Of a stretch of DNA of 23,166 nt, positions 2,853 to 23,166 are shown in pieces. The position numbers and the translations under genes were made by a program. Within the stretch, counting starts at the first letter, position 1; each line of letters begins with the position of its first letter. The DNA is from a virus: positions 1 through 23,166 of IMG/VR virus record IMGVR_UViG_3300029448_000213. The stretch is one strand, 5' to 3'. A model generated the notes under the pieces. It did no database searches. It saw only the letters and a list, made by a program, of their open reading frames with translations, and was not told where the DNA came from.

Positions 2853-3689
2853 TTATCCTAGCTTATCTAGTCTCTCTTCAATTAAAGAAAGAACACTGCT
2901 TCCTTTTTCGGTAAGGCAGAACCTAACCATAGTACTTACAGGGTCTTGTCCTACAGGAACAGAAACAATTAACTTGTTTGAGTCAAACCAATATACTCCG
3001 CTAGATTTTACATTTAAGATTTGATATTCTTTAGCTTGATGTACTGACGCTCGGCAGGTGACCTCAGGAGAGTCTAACGAAGCCAAGAGTTCAGCTGGTT
3101 TAGATTTAGCAATCTTCAATAGATTAAACCTTATCTCTGAAGTCTGGCTATCTATTCCTATCCCAAAGTACATAGCTATAGGTAAGAGCTCTGTAATATC
3201 TCTATCTCTAACAAGAGAGATAGCATCATTAACTAAGAACTCTTTTTTAAGTTCTTTTTCAGCATCCATTCTTTTATCTACAACCTGAAACGTATTGCCT
3301 CCATTAGCTTTGTTTGCAGGGTGTTCTTCTAAAAACTTTCTAAGATTAGGCTTTTCTTTAGGAACAAATACTCTTCCATTTCTAAAAGCTACAGATTGCT
3401 TAAGGGCGTTCTTTGATTGCTTGTCTACATATATAGACGGCTCATTTGGGCAATAGCGTATTTCTCGAATAGAGTCTATCTCTTTGTCATAAACGGTCAC
3501 GCCTTTTTGAGGTAACATAAAAACGATTCCCCCGCCTTTTATAATCTCGTACTCGCAATGATAGGCTTCTTCTTTTCGCTTTATAGTGCGCTTCTTTACG
3601 GGTTTAGAAGCAGGAGCTTCTTTAGTTATAGCAGGCTTTTCAGCAGCTACATGTTTAGTGCTCTCAGGAGCTTTTTTTGTTTTTTCCAT
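2853..3689 (-). CDS. Conserved phage structural protein of unknown role (278 aa)
   Basis: The first about 40 residues are rich in Lys, Ala, Pro and Glu (EKPAITKEAPASKPVKKRT) and look disordered. The rest is ordered: a beta-like part with IREIRYCPNEPSIYVDKQ, then VAFRNGRVFVPKEKPNLRKF, a charged helical part with RMDAEKELKKEF, and a C-terminal YWFDSNKLIVSVPVGQDP segment. This order (a 'P-N-PSI-VD-Q' strand, 'NG-L-VP---P-L--FL---P-N', then a D-A-rich helix) is one I associate with a protein family common in marine phage structural blocks, usually between capsid and tail genes and without a known role. It is the last gene before a terminator hairpin. Thirteen bases separate it from the upstream lectin-fused gene. 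Confidence 0.6.
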   Translation of the reverse strand: MEKTKKAPESTKHVAAEKPAITKEAPASKPVKKRTIKRKEEAYHCEYEIIKGGGIVFMLPQKGVTVYDKEIDSIREIRYCPNEPSIYVDKQSKNALKQSVAFRNGRVFVPKEKPNLRKFLEEHPANKANGGNTFQVVDKRMDAEKELKKEFLVNDAISLVRDRDITELLPIAMYFGIGIDSQTSEIRFNLLKIAKSKPAELLASLDSPEVTCRASVHQAKEYQILNVKSSGVYWFDSNKLIVSVPVGQDPVSTMVRFCLTEKGSSVLSLIEERLDKLG

Positions 3690-3701
3690 TATTAAAATAA
3701 A

Positions 3702-4988
3702 TTAAAGGGTATATAAATTAAATAAATCTTTTGCTAGTTTAGTAGATGCATTTAAACCTATGTCGTAGTCTAACACGCCAAATCGAGCAATTTTAATTGC
3801 TGCAGTTGAGCTTGGTACTTGAGATACAGCTCCTATTTGTTCTAGAAGAAGGTCTCCATCAGTAAGGCCAGATGTTGAGTTTGAAGAATCTGGTGTGTTT
3901 AATCTTGTTTTTGCAGGTATAAAAGAAATTATATCTCCATTTCGGTTATGTAAAAACAAGTTAAAATCTTTGTCGCGACGTATAATAAATACGTCACAAC
4001 CGTTATAATCTGAAGCAGTAGGTTGTAAATCAGGGTAAGAAAAAGATACAGTCCAGTCGTTTTCTTTTGTAGTTGATTTTGCTGGTAGGCCTGTAACGCC
4101 ACTATGCCTCATAGTAAAAAAATCTTTTGTAGCAGTTTGTTTTGGGAAACTACTAGTAGAAAATGTTCCAGCAAATCCAGAAGTTTCTCCATCTTCATCA
4201 CCAAAGATGCCCTTATAAGATGCTGATGTTGTATTAGACTCTTTAGTACTGCATACTACGTAAATAGTATAATCTTTTTTTACTTTAAAAGAATTAGGTA
4301 TAATAAAATACGCTGTAGAAGGAAATTCTACGTATGAAGTAGAAAATGTAGATAAAACACTTGAAGAATTTTGGGATTTAATTGTCCCTACTCCAGAAGA
4401 AATATCATATGTTGAGCCACCACTCCCAGAATTTTTCCATCCTGTAGAGGTTATTGTTGCAGTTCCTGTGGTAGAAAATTCTTCGTGGTTGTAATCTATT
4501 ACAGGTTTATTCTTGTTAAAAGCAATACCTCCAATTACATTGTTGTATAACCTTGCTTGTTCCTCTGCAGTTTCTTCTCCAGAAAGTATAGAGGTAGGGT
4601 TTGACTTTAAGCTTACCGTAATGTCATTCTTAGACTCAGTTTTAGATCTAGAAAAAGTTGATGCCTGGTCTACAACGTCAAATTTCATAACGCTCTCTCT
4701 AGTCTCTGAACTTATAAAGTTTAAAATTAACTCTATAACTTTCATCTCTTCATTAGGAGCACACGCTATAGATACGCTCGTCTTCTCTATTTTATCTCCT
4801 GTAAGAAGGCTTACATTGTCGTAAAGCCCAGAGCCATTAAAAGTAATGTTTACGAAGCCTTTTACCGCAGTAATGTGTGCTACGTTATCTGAAGGGACAG
4901 CAAAGACACTTAGACCCTCTCCTGTATCGGAAGAGTGAACACTTGCTTCGTTAATCTCTTCTCTACGAAATAAGAAGAATTTTTTCAT
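3702..4988 (-). CDS. Capsid-associated paralogue fused to a LamG/concanavalin-like domain (428 aa)
   Basis: Residues 1-105 repeat the layout of the four preceding small proteins: a short FFLFRRE strand, a VFAVPSDNV turn (compare MPVDRF and MPVDKL), a beta strand (VNITF), then a helix with EMKVIELILNFIS and a final KFDVVD strand. After a linker, residues about 185-428 are beta-rich, with DYTIYVVCSTKE, FIIRRDKDFNLFLHNRNGD and a terminal helix in which LNASTKLAKDLFNLYTL replaces the usual tail of LamG-like jelly rolls. I infer a capsid-binding N-domain presenting a carbohydrate-binding lectin fold. It has its own TATATTTG promoter and sits after a strong terminator, so it may be expressed separately from the smaller paralogues. 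Lectin identity is inferred from fold pattern only. Confidence 0.6.
   Translation of the reverse strand: MKKFFLFRREEINEASVHSSDTGEGLSVFAVPSDNVAHITAVKGFVNITFNGSGLYDNVSLLTGDKIEKTSVSIACAPNEEMKVIELILNFISSETRESVMKFDVVDQASTFSRSKTESKNDITVSLKSNPTSILSGEETAEEQARLYNNVIGGIAFNKNKPVIDYNHEEFSTTGTATITSTGWKNSGSGGSTYDISSGVGTIKSQNSSSVLSTFSTSYVEFPSTAYFIIPNSFKVKKDYTIYVVCSTKESNTTSASYKGIFGDEDGETSGFAGTFSTSSFPKQTATKDFFTMRHSGVTGLPAKSTTKENDWTVSFSYPDLQPTASDYNGCDVFIIRRDKDFNLFLHNRNGDIISFIPAKTRLNTPDSSNSTSGLTDGDLLLEQIGAVSQVPSSTAAIKIARFGVLDYDIGLNASTKLAKDLFNLYTL
3705..4436 (-). other. LamG/concanavalin-like module of the 428-residue protein
   Basis: This is the region encoding about residues 185-428. Alternating beta strands (YTIYVVCS, KGIFGDEDG, FFTMRHSG, DVFIIRRD, NLFLHNRN) end in a helix carrying LAKDLFNLYTL, as in LamG-type beta-sandwich domains. 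It has no counterpart in the neighbouring paralogues, so it appears to be a separate module added to the shared N-domain. Confidence 0.5.
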
Positions 4989-13104: not shown

Positions 13105-14442
13105 TTAAGATGTAAATACTTGACTTGATACTGTGTAACGATCACTCCAATCGTGAAGTAAAACTACTATAACGTAAATGTTTGAAGAGGTCATACCGCC
13201 AGTAGCTTGTATTGATATTTTCATGTTTTCTCCTTTATCTACAGTAGCGCTGTCAAATAAAAAATGAACAACATCTAGATCATTCGAAGCTGACACACTA
13301 ACCGTTTCAGACTCTACAGCAGAACTTGATGATGAGCCTATAGCATCTTTTTCTACTTCAAGTGTTATATCTCCACCGCTACTAATTACGCTAGTAACTT
13401 TTACCTGAGCGCTTAATACAGTTGTATGACAAGGAGCAAGCCAATCAGTGTATGAGTTGCTGTCAGTAGCTTGTTCACTAGGGGCTCCGTTTAAAGGAAG
13501 GTAATGTTTTGTAGTTCCTATATTATCAAAAAATCCACACGATATATAGTCATATGTTTTAGCTTCAATGCGCCCACCAACAGTTAAATCCCCCGTACTT
13601 GAATTAAAAGCAAGATTTGTACCTGTTTTAGGAGCAACATTACCTGTTGCGGCTGTAGCAAATAAAGGGAAACAAGTTGTGTCTGATGACTCATCAGCTG
13701 CTGTTACTGTTGTTGCTATAGCTGCTGTGCCTGTAGTGTCTTGATTTAAGGTTTCTACATCTAAAACTAAAGTCCCATTTCCTGTTGTGGCCGCAAGTCC
13801 TGCACCCGCTAAATTTCCTGCTGACACTCTTGCGGGTGCTGCTCCACCTACAAGTATACCCCCATTTTCAGAAAGATCTACCTCTTGAATTGTGCCGCCG
13901 CTATTCCCAAATAAAACTGCATTATCTGTAAAAGAGGTTGCTCCAGTCCCTCCTTTTGTAACAGGTAATGATCCAACAGTATTTGGCGCCGACAAATTTA
14001 CCTGAATCTCACCAGAGTTTATTTCAAGACCTGATTGGTATTTTAAATCAGCACTAAACTCAGTCCCAGAAAGGGTTAGTCCGTCTCCTGCTGAATAAGT
14101 AGTATTAGTGTCGCTTACCGTATTAGTGAAGGTTATTTTATCACTGCTTCTAGCTATACTTAACCCTGTTCCAGCTTCAAGAACAACATCATCGGTAGAA
14201 GCATCACTACCCGTTAATCTTATTTTTTCTTCGTCTGAGTTATCACCGTCAACACAAGAAATACCATACGTAGCTCCTGAAGCTCCCGCAGCTCCTGTAG
14301 CTCCCGCAGCTCCTGTAGCTCCTGTAGCGCCAGTTTCTCCTGTGTCACCTTTAGGTCCCTTGTTGGTTACTGTAATAGAAGAATTTGACGGAGTGCTTAC
14401 CGTAACAGATATGCCGCTAGTTGTTGTTACCTCTACGCTCAT
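13105..14442 (-). CDS. Collagen-repeat fibre protein (445 aa)
   Basis: After a beta N-terminus (MSVEVTTTSGISVTVSTPSN), residues 29-58 are ten Gly-X-Y triplets (GPKGDTGETGATGATGAAG and so on), a collagen-like triple helix. Next come fibre-type strands and turns (GLTLSGTEFSADLKYQSGL, LPVTKGGTGATSFTDNAVLF). The KGGTGATS segment is a very common tail/head fibre repeat element. The C-terminal about 140 residues, starting near YDYISCGFFDN and with TDWLAPCHTTVLSAQVKV, look like a folded tip domain with beta strands. The start overlaps the adaptor gene's stop (ATGA), so it is coupled to it. Host-binding or head fibre; which end of the virion is uncertain. Confidence 0.75.
   Translation of the reverse strand: MSVEVTTTSGISVTVSTPSNSSITVTNKGPKGDTGETGATGATGAAGATGAAGASGATYGISCVDGDNSDEEKIRLTGSDASTDDVVLEAGTGLSIARSSDKITFTNTVSDTNTTYSAGDGLTLSGTEFSADLKYQSGLEINSGEIQVNLSAPNTVGSLPVTKGGTGATSFTDNAVLFGNSGGTIQEVDLSENGGILVGGAAPARVSAGNLAGAGLAATTGNGTLVLDVETLNQDTTGTAAIATTVTAADESSDTTCFPLFATAATGNVAPKTGTNLAFNSSTGDLTVGGRIEAKTYDYISCGFFDNIGTTKHYLPLNGAPSEQATDSNSYTDWLAPCHTTVLSAQVKVTSVISSGGDITLEVEKDAIGSSSSSAVESETVSVSASNDLDVVHFLFDSATVDKGENMKISIQATGGMTSSNIYVIVVLLHDWSDRYTVSSQVFTS
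14269..14358 (-). repeat. Collagen-like Gly-X-Y coding repeat
   Basis: Ten consecutive Gly-X-Y triplets, mostly GAT and GAA, encoded by repeated gct/gca/gta-type codons on the opposite strand. Because Gly-X-Y repeats misalign easily, the triplet number may vary between related viruses. Confidence 0.85.
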
Positions 14443-17308: not shown

Positions 17309-19429
17309 TTAACCAAAAACTTCGTACCGTCTAAAAAACTTTCGGTTTAAGTCAGTTTTCTTTTTCTTTTTTACTCTTTTTTGTGCGGCAAGCAAGGCTA
17401 AACCAGAACTTATAGTTAAGTCAAATTTTGTTCTGTTGTCTATTTGGTATCCAATCCAATCCTCTAAAGTTTTGTTAAAGTACATGTTTCCAGCCTCTCC
17501 TGTATCTTGATTTAATCCTACATGATTATGTATATAAGATTCGATTGCATGAGCATGAGCCTGAATTACATCTTGAGAGTTAGAAGGAATACCTTTTGTT
17601 TTAACTTTAACCTTTGCTGAAGTTGACGTTAAGTGCTGGGGTCTATCCATAAGGTACCCGTCATACTCTCTAGACTCAAAGTATCTAGCTATACCATATT
17701 TGTTGTTCTCTATTAAAATAGGGTAACCGTAAAATACCGCAGCCATTAAAACATCTTCGTAAAAAATCTTAGCTAACGGAGGTCTTGAAGCATACTCCAG
17801 TACAAACATATTTGATGGGTGCTCTATATGAAATTTGTTGTACAAATGCAAAGCTCCTTTAGAACCTCTACCGTCTACAGTTGCATCAAGATCGTAAGAG
17901 TCTACCCCACCACAACCCATATCTGCATTAGGCGCAACTCTCTTGCCGTTATTATGTGCTTTTCTATTACGTAGGTCAGCTGGAGGCATCCAAGATATTT
18001 TAAATCTACCTCTAGGGTTAGGAGAGAATAAAACCTCAGTATCTTGTTTTCCGTCTTTCCAAACAAAATCTCCTGTTACTACTGGATTTGGAAATAAATC
18101 TTCATTAACATCTATTTGTTCATATATCTTACCTATGTTAAATATACTACCCTCGATACTATCCCTAAAGGCTTCGTCCTCTGAAAGTGGGAATTGACGT
18201 ATAACCTCGTTCATTTCTGATGCGTTATCTTTTAAAGCATCTCTTTCATTTTTTAAATATTGTTTTGCCCCAATAAGTATAGGTTCGTTATCTATACCTT
18301 CTACGGGTGTTAGGGGAGTTTCTGTAACAGGGTTTCCATATAAATCAAAGAAGCCTTCAAGAGATTCAGATGCTGGGATAAACAATCTATACAAACCTGT
18401 TCTTGTTCTTCCGTTTGCGTTTCTTGATAATGGATCCGAATCAGACCAAAGTGTTTTATACTCTTTCCCCCCTTTAGACATAGGATTAACGGTACTTCCT
18501 ACAAGTGCCTTCCCAACAATTTTTTTACCTACAATTAAGCATGTCCTTTGAATCCTCCATGCATCTCGTATATCTGTTGGCTTCTCCCATTTACCCGCCT
18601 CGTCTAAATATAGAATATGCAGTTTTTCTCCGTCATAAGCATTGTTAGTTGTGTTCTTCCAGTTTATAACTGTGTTAAGAGCCTCTCCTATTTGAGAAGT
18701 TTTATTTTTTTTCGTGATTCGTTTAGAAGGTTCTCTAAATGCTAATTCCATACGAGGGTTTGTTGTACCATCTTGAATAGGCTTAAAAAAGAACGGATAG
18801 TTTCTAAACATGTAAACCACCTTCTTCATGAAGATGTTCTCCTGAGCGTCTTTACCCGTTTTCGATTGTATCCCCATAAGCTTGTCTTTAACTTGTGTAG
18901 CTTCATCAACAAGTACAGCAGAACAAATATTGGTGTACCCAGAACGACGGCACTTAGTATAAAGCTGACCAATACAACGAGGGTCAGCCTCGCAAGCAGC
19001 CATGTGTAAAAATATTTCACGTTGAAAGTTTAAAAAATATGGGTAACCAATATCTAATTTGGTCCATTGCAACATCATGTAATGCCGCCCCGTAATATAT
19101 GTAGGTGTGCCGTTGTTATAAAACCAAATGCCTTCAGACCTACGCCTAAACTCCTCCTCGATATATGGGCGAAACTTTTCTCTAAATTCTTTTGGCGTCT
19201 CGGCCCACTCATCCATAGAACGAATACGAGACAATTCTTTTGGCATAGATATCCTTGTCCACACTTGCAAAGGCTTTGACTGGCTATATCCGAGAATTTG
19301 TTTTTTTTCAGGCTTTTTGGGAAGACAAATGAATATCCCACCGATCTCAATAATTTCACCTTCTGTACCCTTGGGGCATATTTTAATAACCTTCTCATCG
19401 TGCTCTTCTGAGTCAAGAAGCGAACTCAT
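17309..19429 (-). CDS. terL: Terminase large subunit (ATPase and nuclease)
   Basis: A 706-residue genome-packaging motor. The ATPase part has a deviant P-loop TKCRRSGYT at residues 158-166 and a Walker B HILYLDEAG with catalytic acidic pair D276/E277. A coupling-type motif ALVGSTVNPM follows at about 308-317. The RNase H-fold nuclease shows GGVDSYDLD with D510, then ILIENN with E574 and the C-terminal segment SQDVIQAHAHAIESYI. The usual P-loop lysine is replaced by Tyr165, while K159 lies five residues before G164. The gene starts on a TAATG overlap with the Cys-rich gene upstream. No terminase small subunit is recognised; the 96-residue helical protein at 21840-22130 is one candidate. Family identity is secure. 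Confidence 0.93.
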   Translation of the reverse strand: MSSLLDSEEHDEKVIKICPKGTEGEIIEIGGIFICLPKKPEKKQILGYSQSKPLQVWTRISMPKELSRIRSMDEWAETPKEFREKFRPYIEEEFRRRSEGIWFYNNGTPTYITGRHYMMLQWTKLDIGYPYFLNFQREIFLHMAACEADPRCIGQLYTKCRRSGYTNICSAVLVDEATQVKDKLMGIQSKTGKDAQENIFMKKVVYMFRNYPFFFKPIQDGTTNPRMELAFREPSKRITKKNKTSQIGEALNTVINWKNTTNNAYDGEKLHILYLDEAGKWEKPTDIRDAWRIQRTCLIVGKKIVGKALVGSTVNPMSKGGKEYKTLWSDSDPLSRNANGRTRTGLYRLFIPASESLEGFFDLYGNPVTETPLTPVEGIDNEPILIGAKQYLKNERDALKDNASEMNEVIRQFPLSEDEAFRDSIEGSIFNIGKIYEQIDVNEDLFPNPVVTGDFVWKDGKQDTEVLFSPNPRGRFKISWMPPADLRNRKAHNNGKRVAPNADMGCGGVDSYDLDATVDGRGSKGALHLYNKFHIEHPSNMFVLEYASRPPLAKIFYEDVLMAAVFYGYPILIENNKYGIARYFESREYDGYLMDRPQHLTSTSAKVKVKTKGIPSNSQDVIQAHAHAIESYIHNHVGLNQDTGEAGNMYFNKTLEDWIGYQIDNRTKFDLTISSGLALLAAQKRVKKKKKTDLNRKFFRRYEVFG

Positions 19430-19812
19430 TAAAACTTAGCTTTTATAAATCCTTTTTTATGCTTATACGGAGCCATGTATTTTGGAGCGTCTCCATCGCA
19501 ACACCATTCTGCTCCTCCCGCCCAGGGATCTATACACCAGCATTGGTTATATTTTTTAGATTGTTTCAATCTGTAATGATGTTGAGGAGAACAACTCATG
19601 AATAACATAGAGGCTGCTAAAGCCAACGCAAATGTTTGTCCAAATCTATTAGATCTAAAACCAGGGGCTCCTGACTTAGGATTAGCCAATTCCATATACT
19701 CTCCACAATCGCACTTTATGTCATGTATTACACCTACACCTTCTATGTATTTTATTGTTACACCAGACTTATCTACAACTTCATCGTTGCACTTACATTT
19801 ATATTCAGCCAT
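19429..19812 (-). CDS. Cys-rich protein with zinc-ribbon-like head and possible lipobox (127 aa)
   Basis: Two Cys-X-Cys pairs at residues 6/8 and 34/36 (YKCKCNDE and IKCDCGEYMEL) suggest a small zinc-binding ribbon. It is followed by ELANPKSGAPGFRSNRFGQT, resembling small phage proteins encoded near terminases. Residues 60-73 are then hydrophobic (TFALALAASMLFMS) and lead straight to Cys74, as in a lipoprotein lipobox. A second Cys-rich part follows, CWCIDPWAGGAEWCCDGD. The hydrophobic run is internal rather than N-terminal, so this may be a fusion of a zinc-ribbon gene with a small lipoprotein, or an internal start (Met69 or Met72) may be used. It is coupled to terminase by TAATG. Function unknown. 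Confidence 0.6.
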   Translation of the reverse strand: MAEYKCKCNDEVVDKSGVTIKYIEGVGVIHDIKCDCGEYMELANPKSGAPGFRSNRFGQTFALALAASMLFMSCSPQHHYRLKQSKKYNQCWCIDPWAGGAEWCCDGDAPKYMAPYKHKKGFIKAKF

Positions 19813-20078: not shown

Positions 20079-21167
20079 TTAGTACAATACCGTTATAGTC
20101 CCGTTAAACTCAAAAACGTTTACATTAACAGAACTGTGAGCGGTTATAGTGTATACATAAACTCCTGCGGAAACGTTTGCATCCCACTCATCTAAGTTAG
20201 AGGCACTAATCCAAACTAAGCTCCCCCATCTATTGTAAATACGGGTTTCCCATTGATCCCAACAAGCGCCATCTGCTATAACTTTCCAAACATCGTTTAT
20301 GCCGTCTCCGTTAGGAGTAACAGCATTAGGGGCAAAAATAGATACCTCGTCACATGGGAACGTTTGACTACATTGCTCCCCAGTATTACAGTCAATATAT
20401 ACAGACTCAGATACAAACTCAGTTATAGTGTCAGTTTCATAAATGTAAATGTATTCATATACTACAGTCTCTATAGTGTCTGTAACATACAACGTGTCTG
20501 TCGTTATCCACTCAACATCTATATATAGTGTATCCGTAAGGTACTCAATAACATCCACATATTCAATAACGTTTACATACACGGTATCACACGCAGGAGG
20601 AGCGCAGTTTATTGCGAAGTTATTTGTAAGATCTATATCAGGGTAGTTTTGAGTTTGAGTGGCACCACCTCCATTTACTGCCCAGCCACCCTCTCCAGTA
20701 GATGCTGTACGAGATAAGTTTATTTGCCATATGACTAGTTCAGTGCATAAGGTGTCATTTGATAGTATCTCTTCCCAACAATCGTTTGTACTTGACCCTG
20801 TATCATAAACATTAGCACTCCAAGTATCCCCATTCTCTAGTATCTGATTCCCGTAAAGAGTAAACACTTTAAATGTCCAACCTGGGTGATTGACTCCAGT
20901 CAAACAATCCAGCCAATTATAATCCAACCCTTCTGCATGCAATCCTAAAACTATGTGAGATACTGTTGTGTTATTATTAATATGCGAGTTTGGGCTAGTT
21001 TCGCAAGTAGTGCCTTGAGATGTAAATTCATTGCACCCGCAATTTTCACTATTAATAGCTTCAATAACAATATCACCTGATGCAGCATCCCAGCTACTTA
21101 TAGCTACATCGCATTGCGCAGATAGCGTTGGAACCCATAAAGCTAATAGATATATTAGTTTTCGCAT
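20079..21167 (-). CDS. Exported protein with T9SS type B (gliding-motility) C-terminal sorting domain (362 aa)
   Basis: A Sec signal peptide, MRKLIYLLALWVPTLSAQ, with cleavage likely after Ala17. Residues 18-193 are a Cys-rich globular part (LGLHAEGLDYNWLDCLTGV; WAVNGGGATQTQNYPDIDL). Residues 194-258 are a stalk of degenerate D-T-aromatic repeats (DTVYVNV, TDTLYIDV, TDTLYVTDTI, ETDTITEF). Residues 275-362 match the gliding-motility-associated / CHU_C C-terminal domain (TIGR04131 type): FAPNAVTPNGDGINDVWKV, IYNRWGSLVW, SAGVYVYTI and a final NGTITVLY. In Bacteroidota that domain sends proteins through the type IX secretion system to the cell surface. The start lies inside the upstream exported gene (13-base overlap), so both are co-made. 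A role in host-surface modification is inferred. Confidence 0.8.
   Translation of the reverse strand: MRKLIYLLALWVPTLSAQCDVAISSWDAASGDIVIEAINSENCGCNEFTSQGTTCETSPNSHINNNTTVSHIVLGLHAEGLDYNWLDCLTGVNHPGWTFKVFTLYGNQILENGDTWSANVYDTGSSTNDCWEEILSNDTLCTELVIWQINLSRTASTGEGGWAVNGGGATQTQNYPDIDLTNNFAINCAPPACDTVYVNVIEYVDVIEYLTDTLYIDVEWITTDTLYVTDTIETVVYEYIYIYETDTITEFVSESVYIDCNTGEQCSQTFPCDEVSIFAPNAVTPNGDGINDVWKVIADGACWDQWETRIYNRWGSLVWISASNLDEWDANVSAGVYVYTITAHSSVNVNVFEFNGTITVLY
20082..20345 (-). other. T9SS type B / CHU_C sorting domain coding region
   Basis: Residues 275-362 of the exported protein. Matches to the family by motif: 'NAVTPNGDGINDVW', 'IYNRWGSLVW', a lone W before the turn and 'AGVYVYTI', ending with a 'G-I-V/L' strand at the extreme C-terminus, as is usual for this signal. 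Confidence 0.85.
20394..20588 (-). repeat. D-T-aromatic stalk repeats
   Basis: Residues 194-258 contain repeated 'TDT-hydrophobic-Y-hydrophobic' units (CDTVYVNV, TDTLYIDVEW, TDTLYVTDTIE, ETDTITEF), alternating hydrophobic and polar and rich in Asp, Thr and Tyr. They are degenerate at DNA level and likely form an extended beta stalk between the globular part and the sorting domain. Confidence 0.75.
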
Positions 21168-21520
21168 GGAAGCCCGTAGTTTGACAAAAACAACAATAAA
21201 TCCTGAACGTCTATCGTCCCATTATTATCTAAGTCCCCAGGACACGACTCCGCCTGTATGCATGAAGCGTAATTAGGGTGTTCTGTAAGAAGCGGATATA
21301 CAAACCCATCTCCGTTTAAAACAAAAGTAGTACCTATATCAGCGCACAGTATAATGCTATAACCCCCAGTAGGCAACCCAAAGTAATGAGCGCTCCCATT
21401 ACAGTCTTGGTATTGGAAATTAGTCCACTTTTCAGCGCCCACTGAAGTAAAGACATGTTGGTTGCATTGAGATAACACAGATACAGGTAAAAATAATAAA
21501 ACAAATAAAATGTTTTTCAT
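21155..21520 (-). CDS. Exported protein with dockerin-like calcium-binding end (121 aa)
   Basis: Signal peptide MKNILFVLLFLPVSVLSQ, cleavage likely after Ser17. Residues 19-92 form a small domain with Cys, Gly and aromatic residues (YFGLPTGGYSIILCADIG). Residues 93-117 read CPGDLDNNGTIDVQDLLLFL, one dockerin-type EF-hand loop with Asp96, Asp98, Asn100, Thr102, Asp104 and Asp107 at the canonical calcium positions. Dockerins normally have two such repeats, so one is truncated or a single-loop variant. This 'CPGDLDNNG-IDV-DLL-FLS-YG' sequence is common in secreted Flavobacteriia proteins, often directly before a T9SS sorting domain. Here the sorting domain is carried by the next gene, which overlaps by 13 bases. 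It may bind that partner or a host surface protein. Confidence 0.75.
   Translation of the reverse strand: MKNILFVLLFLPVSVLSQCNQHVFTSVGAEKWTNFQYQDCNGSAHYFGLPTGGYSIILCADIGTTFVLNGDGFVYPLLTEHPNYASCIQAESCPGDLDNNGTIDVQDLLLFLSNYGLPCEN
21164..21244 (-). other. Dockerin-like EF-hand segment
   Basis: Residues 93-119, with loop DLDNNGTIDVQD matching the canonical EF-hand coordination pattern (positions 1, 3, 5, 7, 9, 12), followed by a short hydrophobic helix LLLFLSNYG. Cys93 and Cys119 flank it and could pair. Confidence 0.75.
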
Positions 21521-21537: not shown

Positions 21538-21828
21538 TTATTTTAAAGTAAAAAAATGAGCTATTCTGTGTTTTATAACATATAGTGTTGATTTTAACCA
21601 TAGTTTAAATCCTTTCTCAACGTAGCCTAAGTGAACATTGCATGTGTGGCAAAGTAAGTCTCTTACCTTTCCAGTTTTATGGCAATGATCTACTTTAGCG
21701 CTTGTAAGTTCTTTCTTGCATATAGAACACTTGTTGTTTTGTTTTTTTACTTTTTCCCCATAGTCTTCTTTAGTTAGACCATATCTTTTAAATATTTTTT
21801 GCCACCTAAAGTATTCTGGGTCTCTCAT
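21538..21828 (-). CDS. Endonuclease VII-type HNH protein (96 aa)
   Basis: Cys34-Ser-Ile-Cys37 and Cys60-His-Thr-Cys63 form a four-cysteine zinc site flanking KVDHCHKTGKVRDLLCHTCN, with D47/H48/H50 and N64 as catalytic-type residues. This is the arrangement of the Recombination endonuclease VII family (T4 gp49-type HNH fold), which cleaves branched DNA. T4 endonuclease VII is longer, with C-terminal dimerisation parts; this is close to the minimal catalytic domain, preceded by the helical segment RWQKIFKRYGLTKEDY. It may resolve branched DNA before packaging, which fits its position shortly upstream of the terminase. It may also be a homing-type single-gene endonuclease. Family match is strong, role is inferred. 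Confidence 0.85.
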   Translation of the reverse strand: MRDPEYFRWQKIFKRYGLTKEDYGEKVKKQNNKCSICKKELTSAKVDHCHKTGKVRDLLCHTCNVHLGYVEKGFKLWLKSTLYVIKHRIAHFFTLK

Positions 21829-22948: not shown

Positions 22949-23166
22949 TTATTCTAATTCTATTCCTAAATCCCCTAAAAATTCTTCAAGATCAATATCG
23001 TCTTCTTTATATGTTATACTGATAAAGTCTTGAATGTCTTCTAGCTCAGCTCTGTTCGTTATGTTATAATTATACAGTGCTTTAATATTTGAATGAGAGC
23101 TAGATCTTAAGTTTGATTCTAATAACCCGCACAAAACTACAGAAATATACCTGTCTCTAAAATCGT
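22949..23166 (-). CDS. Partial small protein, start outside window
   Basis: The frame is open to the window edge and ends with a stop at 22949. A TTG at 23132-23134 would give a 61-residue protein, but the frame continues upstream (RDRYISVVLCGLLESN) without a stop, so the true start is probably beyond the window. The rest has NYNITNRAELEDIQDFISIT and an acidic end, DIDLEEFLGDLGIELE. No family recognised. Its stop is one base before the next start codon, in line with the operon's tight packing. Confidence 0.5.
   Translation of the reverse strand, partial: DFRDRYISVVLCGLLESNLRSSSHSNIKALYNYNITNRAELEDIQDFISITYKEDDIDLEEFLGDLGIELE

Follow-up and report, generated by a model that had tools for sequence, protein, structure and literature searches.

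Genes with T9SS sorting domains have been described in a Cryophage, for which use of the host system was proposed and whose authors raise inter-strain competition and superinfection (PMC7468147), so the general idea of phages using the host T9SS is not new. The locus reported here likewise encodes a T9SS sorting domain in a phage. However, the Cryophage cargo consists of single, variable type A proteins (endoglucanase, GH39, PA14) in one phage (PMC7468147), whereas here a conserved pair of genes, A and B, with a type B domain is found in unrelated phages. T9SS type B cargo is displayed on the cell surface via PorP/SprF-like proteins (PMC9143113, PMC12618676), and several orphan cargos can share one shuttle (PMC12618676). 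The larger protein of the pair, B, is similar to SprB and PG1035 (PMC9143113, PMC12618676) in having a signal peptide, a type B C-terminal domain and an expected surface display, but it is phage-encoded, its N-domain has no known family and it is paired with either the small protein A or an M43 peptidase. Like the type I cellulosome dockerins, A has a calcium loop of the form D-x-[DN]-x-[DNS]-G-x(5)-D and a helix after it, but it has one repeat instead of two, no recognised cohesin and no carbohydrate-active enzyme; with a single repeat and no known cohesin, it falls outside the usual dockerin definition. Pappalysin-type M43 metallopeptidases, which stand in the slot of A or are fused to B in some of the phages, differ from A, which has no catalytic domain. 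T5 Llp is a phage receptor-blocking exclusion protein, i.e., a phage-made envelope protein that stops adsorption. The job that we propose for A/B is alike, but Llp is a lipoprotein whereas B is a T9SS-sorted stalk, and no sequence relation between them is claimed. In the open-access papers searched, we found no reports of the A/B pair, of a phage dockerin-type protein that has a T9SS protein as its partner, or of such a role for M43.

The pair was analyzed in a stretch of 23,166 nucleotides (the window), which is part of the record of an uncultured virus with a total length of 31,920 bases. Its features are listed in Table 1. The window also carries a portal (phrog_6547) and, at the capsid position, a virion protein (phrog_13704); by terminase, portal and virion protein, the virus groups with relatives of Flavobacterium elemo phages and of Cellulophaga phages.

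Table 1 Features of the A/B locus in the window (minus strand unless given otherwise)
Feature	Position	Strand	Description and basis
Endonuclease VII-like neighbour	21538..21828	-	upstream, 17 nt from A; context only
Gene A	21155..21520	-	121 aa, exported, half-dockerin tail, without T9SS sorting domain
A signal peptide, residues 1-17	21470..21520	-	cleavage before Gln18 judged by eye
A core, ~75 residues	21245..21469	-	Cys-rich, without known family; alignment and family searches
A half-dockerin, residues 93-119	21164..21244	-	PDB match, loop conservation, pLDDT 75-89
A calcium loop D96-D107	21200-21235	-	dockerin type; conservation
A/B overlap, 13 nt	21155..21167	.	ATGCGAAAACTAA on minus strand; A ends C-E-N-stop, B starts M-R-K-L
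Gene B	20079..21167	-	362 aa, exported, T9SS type B sorting domain
B signal peptide (residues 1-17; Gln18 follows)	21117..21167	-	sequence; helix 2-16 in model
B N-domain, residues 18-190 (~170 aa)	20598..21116	-	predicted mostly beta, without known family
B stalk	20382..20597	-	Tyr/Thr/Asp-rich; disordered in model
B C-terminal T9SS type B sorting domain (CHU_C)	20082..20363	-	Pfam, NCBIfam, fold match
Terminase large subunit, phrog_6681	17309..19429	-	downstream of B; ties pair to packaging/structural block; context only

Gene A starts with ATG, and its coordinates, strand, length and signal peptide are those given in a preliminary description of this DNA. Gln18 and Cys19 are invariant in the alignment of A relatives, and the predicted signal peptide fits the Bacteroidetes Q-rule (PMC5837995). 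The tail of A had been described as a canonical EF-hand, an assignment that we had to abandon: the canonical motif needs Glu at position 12 of the loop, this position is Asp in 47/47 A sequences, and Pfam EF-hand models scored below cut-off. The loop motif, DLDNNGTIDVQD (residues 96-107), is conserved at positions 1, 3, 5 and 12 in all 47 sequences, and the best PDB sequence match of A was to each half of the type I dockerin 2y3n_B (E=4e-4). To judge from these matches, half-dockerin is the better name for the tail. A second tandem dockerin repeat is absent, with a single repeat in A and its close relatives. Searches of A against Pfam and NCBIfam gave no match to a C-terminal T9SS sorting domain, either type A or type B; without this domain, A alone should stop in the periplasm, and its delivery to the surface needs an assumption. 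The AlphaFold model of A has a mean pLDDT of 55.7, which makes a fold search with it meaningless; the core is not confidently modelled, and the half-dockerin is the best-modelled part.

For B, a hydrophobic N-terminus followed by Gln was detected with a simple pattern in 44/44 proteins, and a predicted Sec signal peptide that fits the Q-rule is well supported. The C-terminal domain matched PF13585 (55.3 bits against a cut-off of 27, 7.3e-15) and TIGR04131 (37.2 bits against a cut-off of 35, 2.5e-9), and in the fold search it resembled the C-terminal domain of the T9SS substrate NucA (8glk_D; Z 9.0, rmsd 1.9 over 72 residues). The sorting domain of B occurs in two sequence variants that go with similar N-domains, which would be consistent with B adapting to different shuttles of the host. 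Much of the N-domain was modelled with pLDDT ~70-89, and it had no match in 50,697 deposited phage records or in 72,556 plasmids. No cohesin-like match for it was found by sequence; the fold search barely covered this domain because the match list was taken up by the C-terminal domain, so the fold of the N-domain is not to be called new.

A and B had been described as separate genes overlapping by 13 nt, with a sequencing frameshift as the error that could have split one gene into two. Each protein has its own signal peptide, the two genes occur in either order and they are separate in 44/44 distinct pairs, which rules out the frameshift and upholds the two genes. The expected co-occurrence in other phages was confirmed as well. 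An alignment-based search of viral contigs revealed A relatives with 62–87% identity on 59 contigs, some of which are near-identical to each other, and B was present on 59/59 of them, on the same strand and at most ~2.5 kb away; A was never found without B on these contigs, although B occurs without A. The 13-nt overlap is found in 22 of the 44 distinct pairs and a 10-nt overlap in eight, while eight further pairs have the order B-A with 1–2 nt between the genes. Four pairs have a gap of 466 nt, which is filled by a DUF5675 gene in L016/L151, and one pair has a gap of ~2.5 kb that holds a BspA-like reading frame. The last of the 44 (L075) carries an M43 fragment where A would be.

Values of dN/dS ranged between 0.02 and 0.17 for A and mostly between 0.07 and 0.24 for the N-domain of B, and by this measure the pair is under strong purifying selection. 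The histories of the two genes can diverge. In L054/L056, dS is 1.43 for A and 0.04 for the B N-domain; L004/L012 represents the reverse case, with 0.11 for A and 0.69 for the B N-domain. These opposite contrasts indicate that A and B recombined independently. Between L047 and L054, A is nearly identical (dN 0.023) and the B N-domains are far apart (dN 0.48). Across 40 pairs, the divergence of A and that of the B N-domain were weakly correlated (Mantel r=0.27, p=0.035, n=40), so that mirror-tree support for a tight A–B interface is weak.

The phages that carry the pair have unrelated terminases, i.e., phrog_6681 in the podovirus-like group of the window, L151 and L286 versus T4-like terminases in others, whose records reach up to 199 kb and also encode tail sheath, tail tube and portal. 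A was absent from the 50,697 deposited phage records, and when 84,980 genomes of bacteria and archaea were scanned by pattern, the one match was L133 (WLWP01000006.1), a contig of 61.6 kb assigned to a Pseudomonadales genome. Since its neighbouring genes are GroEL/GroES-like and tail-spike-like, this looks like a phage contig that was apparently mis-binned, and with this single match the idea that A is a recently acquired host gene is not supported. On the sequences compared, A/B is a real, selected and mobile phage module.

The position of A can be occupied by another gene. In L043/L044, L078, L214 and L282, the gene directly upstream of B, overlapping it by 1 to 11 nt, encodes a pappalysin-type M43 metallopeptidase; these proteins bear dockerin-like repeats and a C-terminus that by eye resembles a type A sorting signal, below the Pfam cut-off. 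In L074, L076 and L077, M43 and B form one fused protein with M43 on the N-terminal side. Alignment of the L043 M43 protein with A revealed an N-terminal stretch with 12/28 identical residues and a half-dockerin with 15/30, with the M43 domain between them. A and M43 were not found together in the same record, and B with neither of them was found as well, e.g., in L052, L055, L060, L219 and L228. The fusion with M43 and the displacement of A by M43 suggest that the slot gene and B act together; B would then be the anchor, and the slot of A would hold an effector or partner. In L075, M43 lies in two frames upstream of B (3499-4771), which reflects either gene decay or a fault in the assembly.

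Gene position suggests that A/B is expressed late: the pair shares a block and its strand with packaging genes here and adjoins endolysin-type genes in other phages. Scans of the promoter regions showed no Bacteroidetes-type pattern, and sigma-70-type patterns were at chance level. Lysis-type neighbours are found in three lineages, with the orders endolysin-like-A-B (L178), M15 endolysin-A-B (L288) and A-DUF5675-B (L151), where DUF5675 is counted among them though it is a domain without assigned function; their recurrence suggests action at or near lysis.

The explanation that we prefer, with a probability of roughly 40%, is that A and B form an exported module that uses the host T9SS for a late remodelling of the surface of the infected cell. 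The sequences support well that both proteins have signal peptides for export in a T9SS-bearing host of the Bacteroidota and that A is always co-encoded with B, and B, with its type B sorting domain on a long stalk, should be displayed at the outer surface via a PorP/SprF-type shuttle of the host. PorP/SprF (PF11751) was found in 0/39 records, in a search without a positive control in which control genomes likewise gave no match; a shuttle of the host is the likely route. The module would be made late, with B as surface anchor; its slot partner would presumably be a small binding protein in this phage and in others an M43 metallopeptidase, and the half-dockerin may serve for calcium-dependent docking or stabilisation. 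Infected or lysing cells would thereby have their surface remodelled, with receptors masked or removed, which would keep other phages out and spare the progeny from being lost to debris. Masking or removal of receptors is our best guess for the role, held with low confidence.

As to whether A binds B, the preliminary description proposed a two-component complex in which A is a calcium-dependent small subunit held at the surface by B. Its two-component part agrees with the separate genes, the obligate co-occurrence and the exchange or fusion with M43; a close fit of the two proteins does not agree with the weak match between A and the B N-domain or with their recombining apart. A physical complex is favoured by the obligate linkage of the two genes, by their overlapping frames and by the exchange and fusion with M43. 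Counting against it are the sorting domain missing from A, the near-identical A proteins beside very different B N-domains and, for a tightly matched interface, the weak divergence correlation and the independent recombination. Such a complex is possible, with the odds slightly against it.

It is conceivable, if somewhat doubtful, that A is a stand-alone protein, periplasmic or released, which does not bind B and is co-inherited because it serves the same late stage, e.g., envelope disruption at lysis, with the half-dockerin merely a calcium-stabilised cap. The T9SS domain missing from A, the lysis-type genes beside or between A and B, and the independent recombination of the two genes speak for it; however, A does not occur without B though B without A exists, the slot M43 proteins carry their own sorting signal and should thus reach the same place as B, and the fusions of M43 with B suggest that the two act jointly in a single place.

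A more specific form of surface action, which we consider unlikely, is a phage-restricted docking pair, i.e., a viral counterpart of cohesin-dockerin that is displayed on the host surface by the host T9SS and was spread by recombination through unrelated Bacteroidota phages; its swappable effectors, small or proteolytic, would strip receptors or mask them. We regard as distinctly unlikely that B is an adhesin or particle-binding module, whose N-domain sticks infected cells together or to particles and so aids transmission, with A as a tip partner. B is laid out like a stalked surface adhesin and belongs to the same sorting class as the gliding adhesin SprB (PMC9143113), and its N-domain is more variable than A, as is often the case for recognition tips, but no lectin or adhesin family was recognised in B, and M43 in the same slot suits removal better than sticking. 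It is highly improbable that A is a calcium-controlled regulator that keeps B inactive or stable until marine calcium is encountered outside the cell. A does occupy the effector slot, shares the end segments of the effector and has invariant calcium-loop residues; however, A matched no known inhibitor family, and its absence from records with M43 argues against an M43 inhibitor. That A and B are virion-associated, as accessory tail or fibre parts with incidental export signals, is barely credible: the pair does lie among tail-fibre-like genes in L133/L017 and L178, but virions assemble in the cytoplasm, whereas A and B keep signal peptides and Cys residues and B has a T9SS domain.

T9SS cargo in phages was earlier known as a peculiarity of one phage (PMC7468147). 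Under the preferred explanation of surface remodelling, a module that is shared by podovirus-like and large T4-like phages, with an interchangeable metallopeptidase, would make surface action via the host T9SS a general strategy, and suggests that many unrelated uncultured phages alter the exterior of the cells that they infect. What a phage gains from redecorating its Bacteroidota host, probably just ahead of lysis, is a question now open to testing.

Several other genes were observed around the pair. Downstream of B-like genes, either directly or after a short distance, there are small lipoprotein-like genes (~86–90 aa) that fall into two sequence groups and occur mostly with M43 (L078:8853-9119, also L074, L075, L076, L077, L080 and L219); their product is possibly a third partner. 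Directly before a B-like gene, L228:10-5940 is a reading frame of 1976 aa without a PHROG match. Type A T9SS domains are present on further proteins of pair-bearing phages (L178:3799-5937; G035:C1:18084-18272). At the end of the window (~23164-23166 and beyond; L130), undetermined bases break a 101-aa reading frame. The protein encoded at 13105-14442 is fibre-like and includes a Gly-x-y stretch of the collagen type (Pfam Collagen 5e-5, below cut-off). The gene at 19429-19812 encodes a 127-aa protein with a zinc-ribbon-like N-terminal half; most of its relatives match up to ~residue 62 only, and a lipobox-like segment (LFMSC) plus a Cys-rich tail are added to this half here and in L003.
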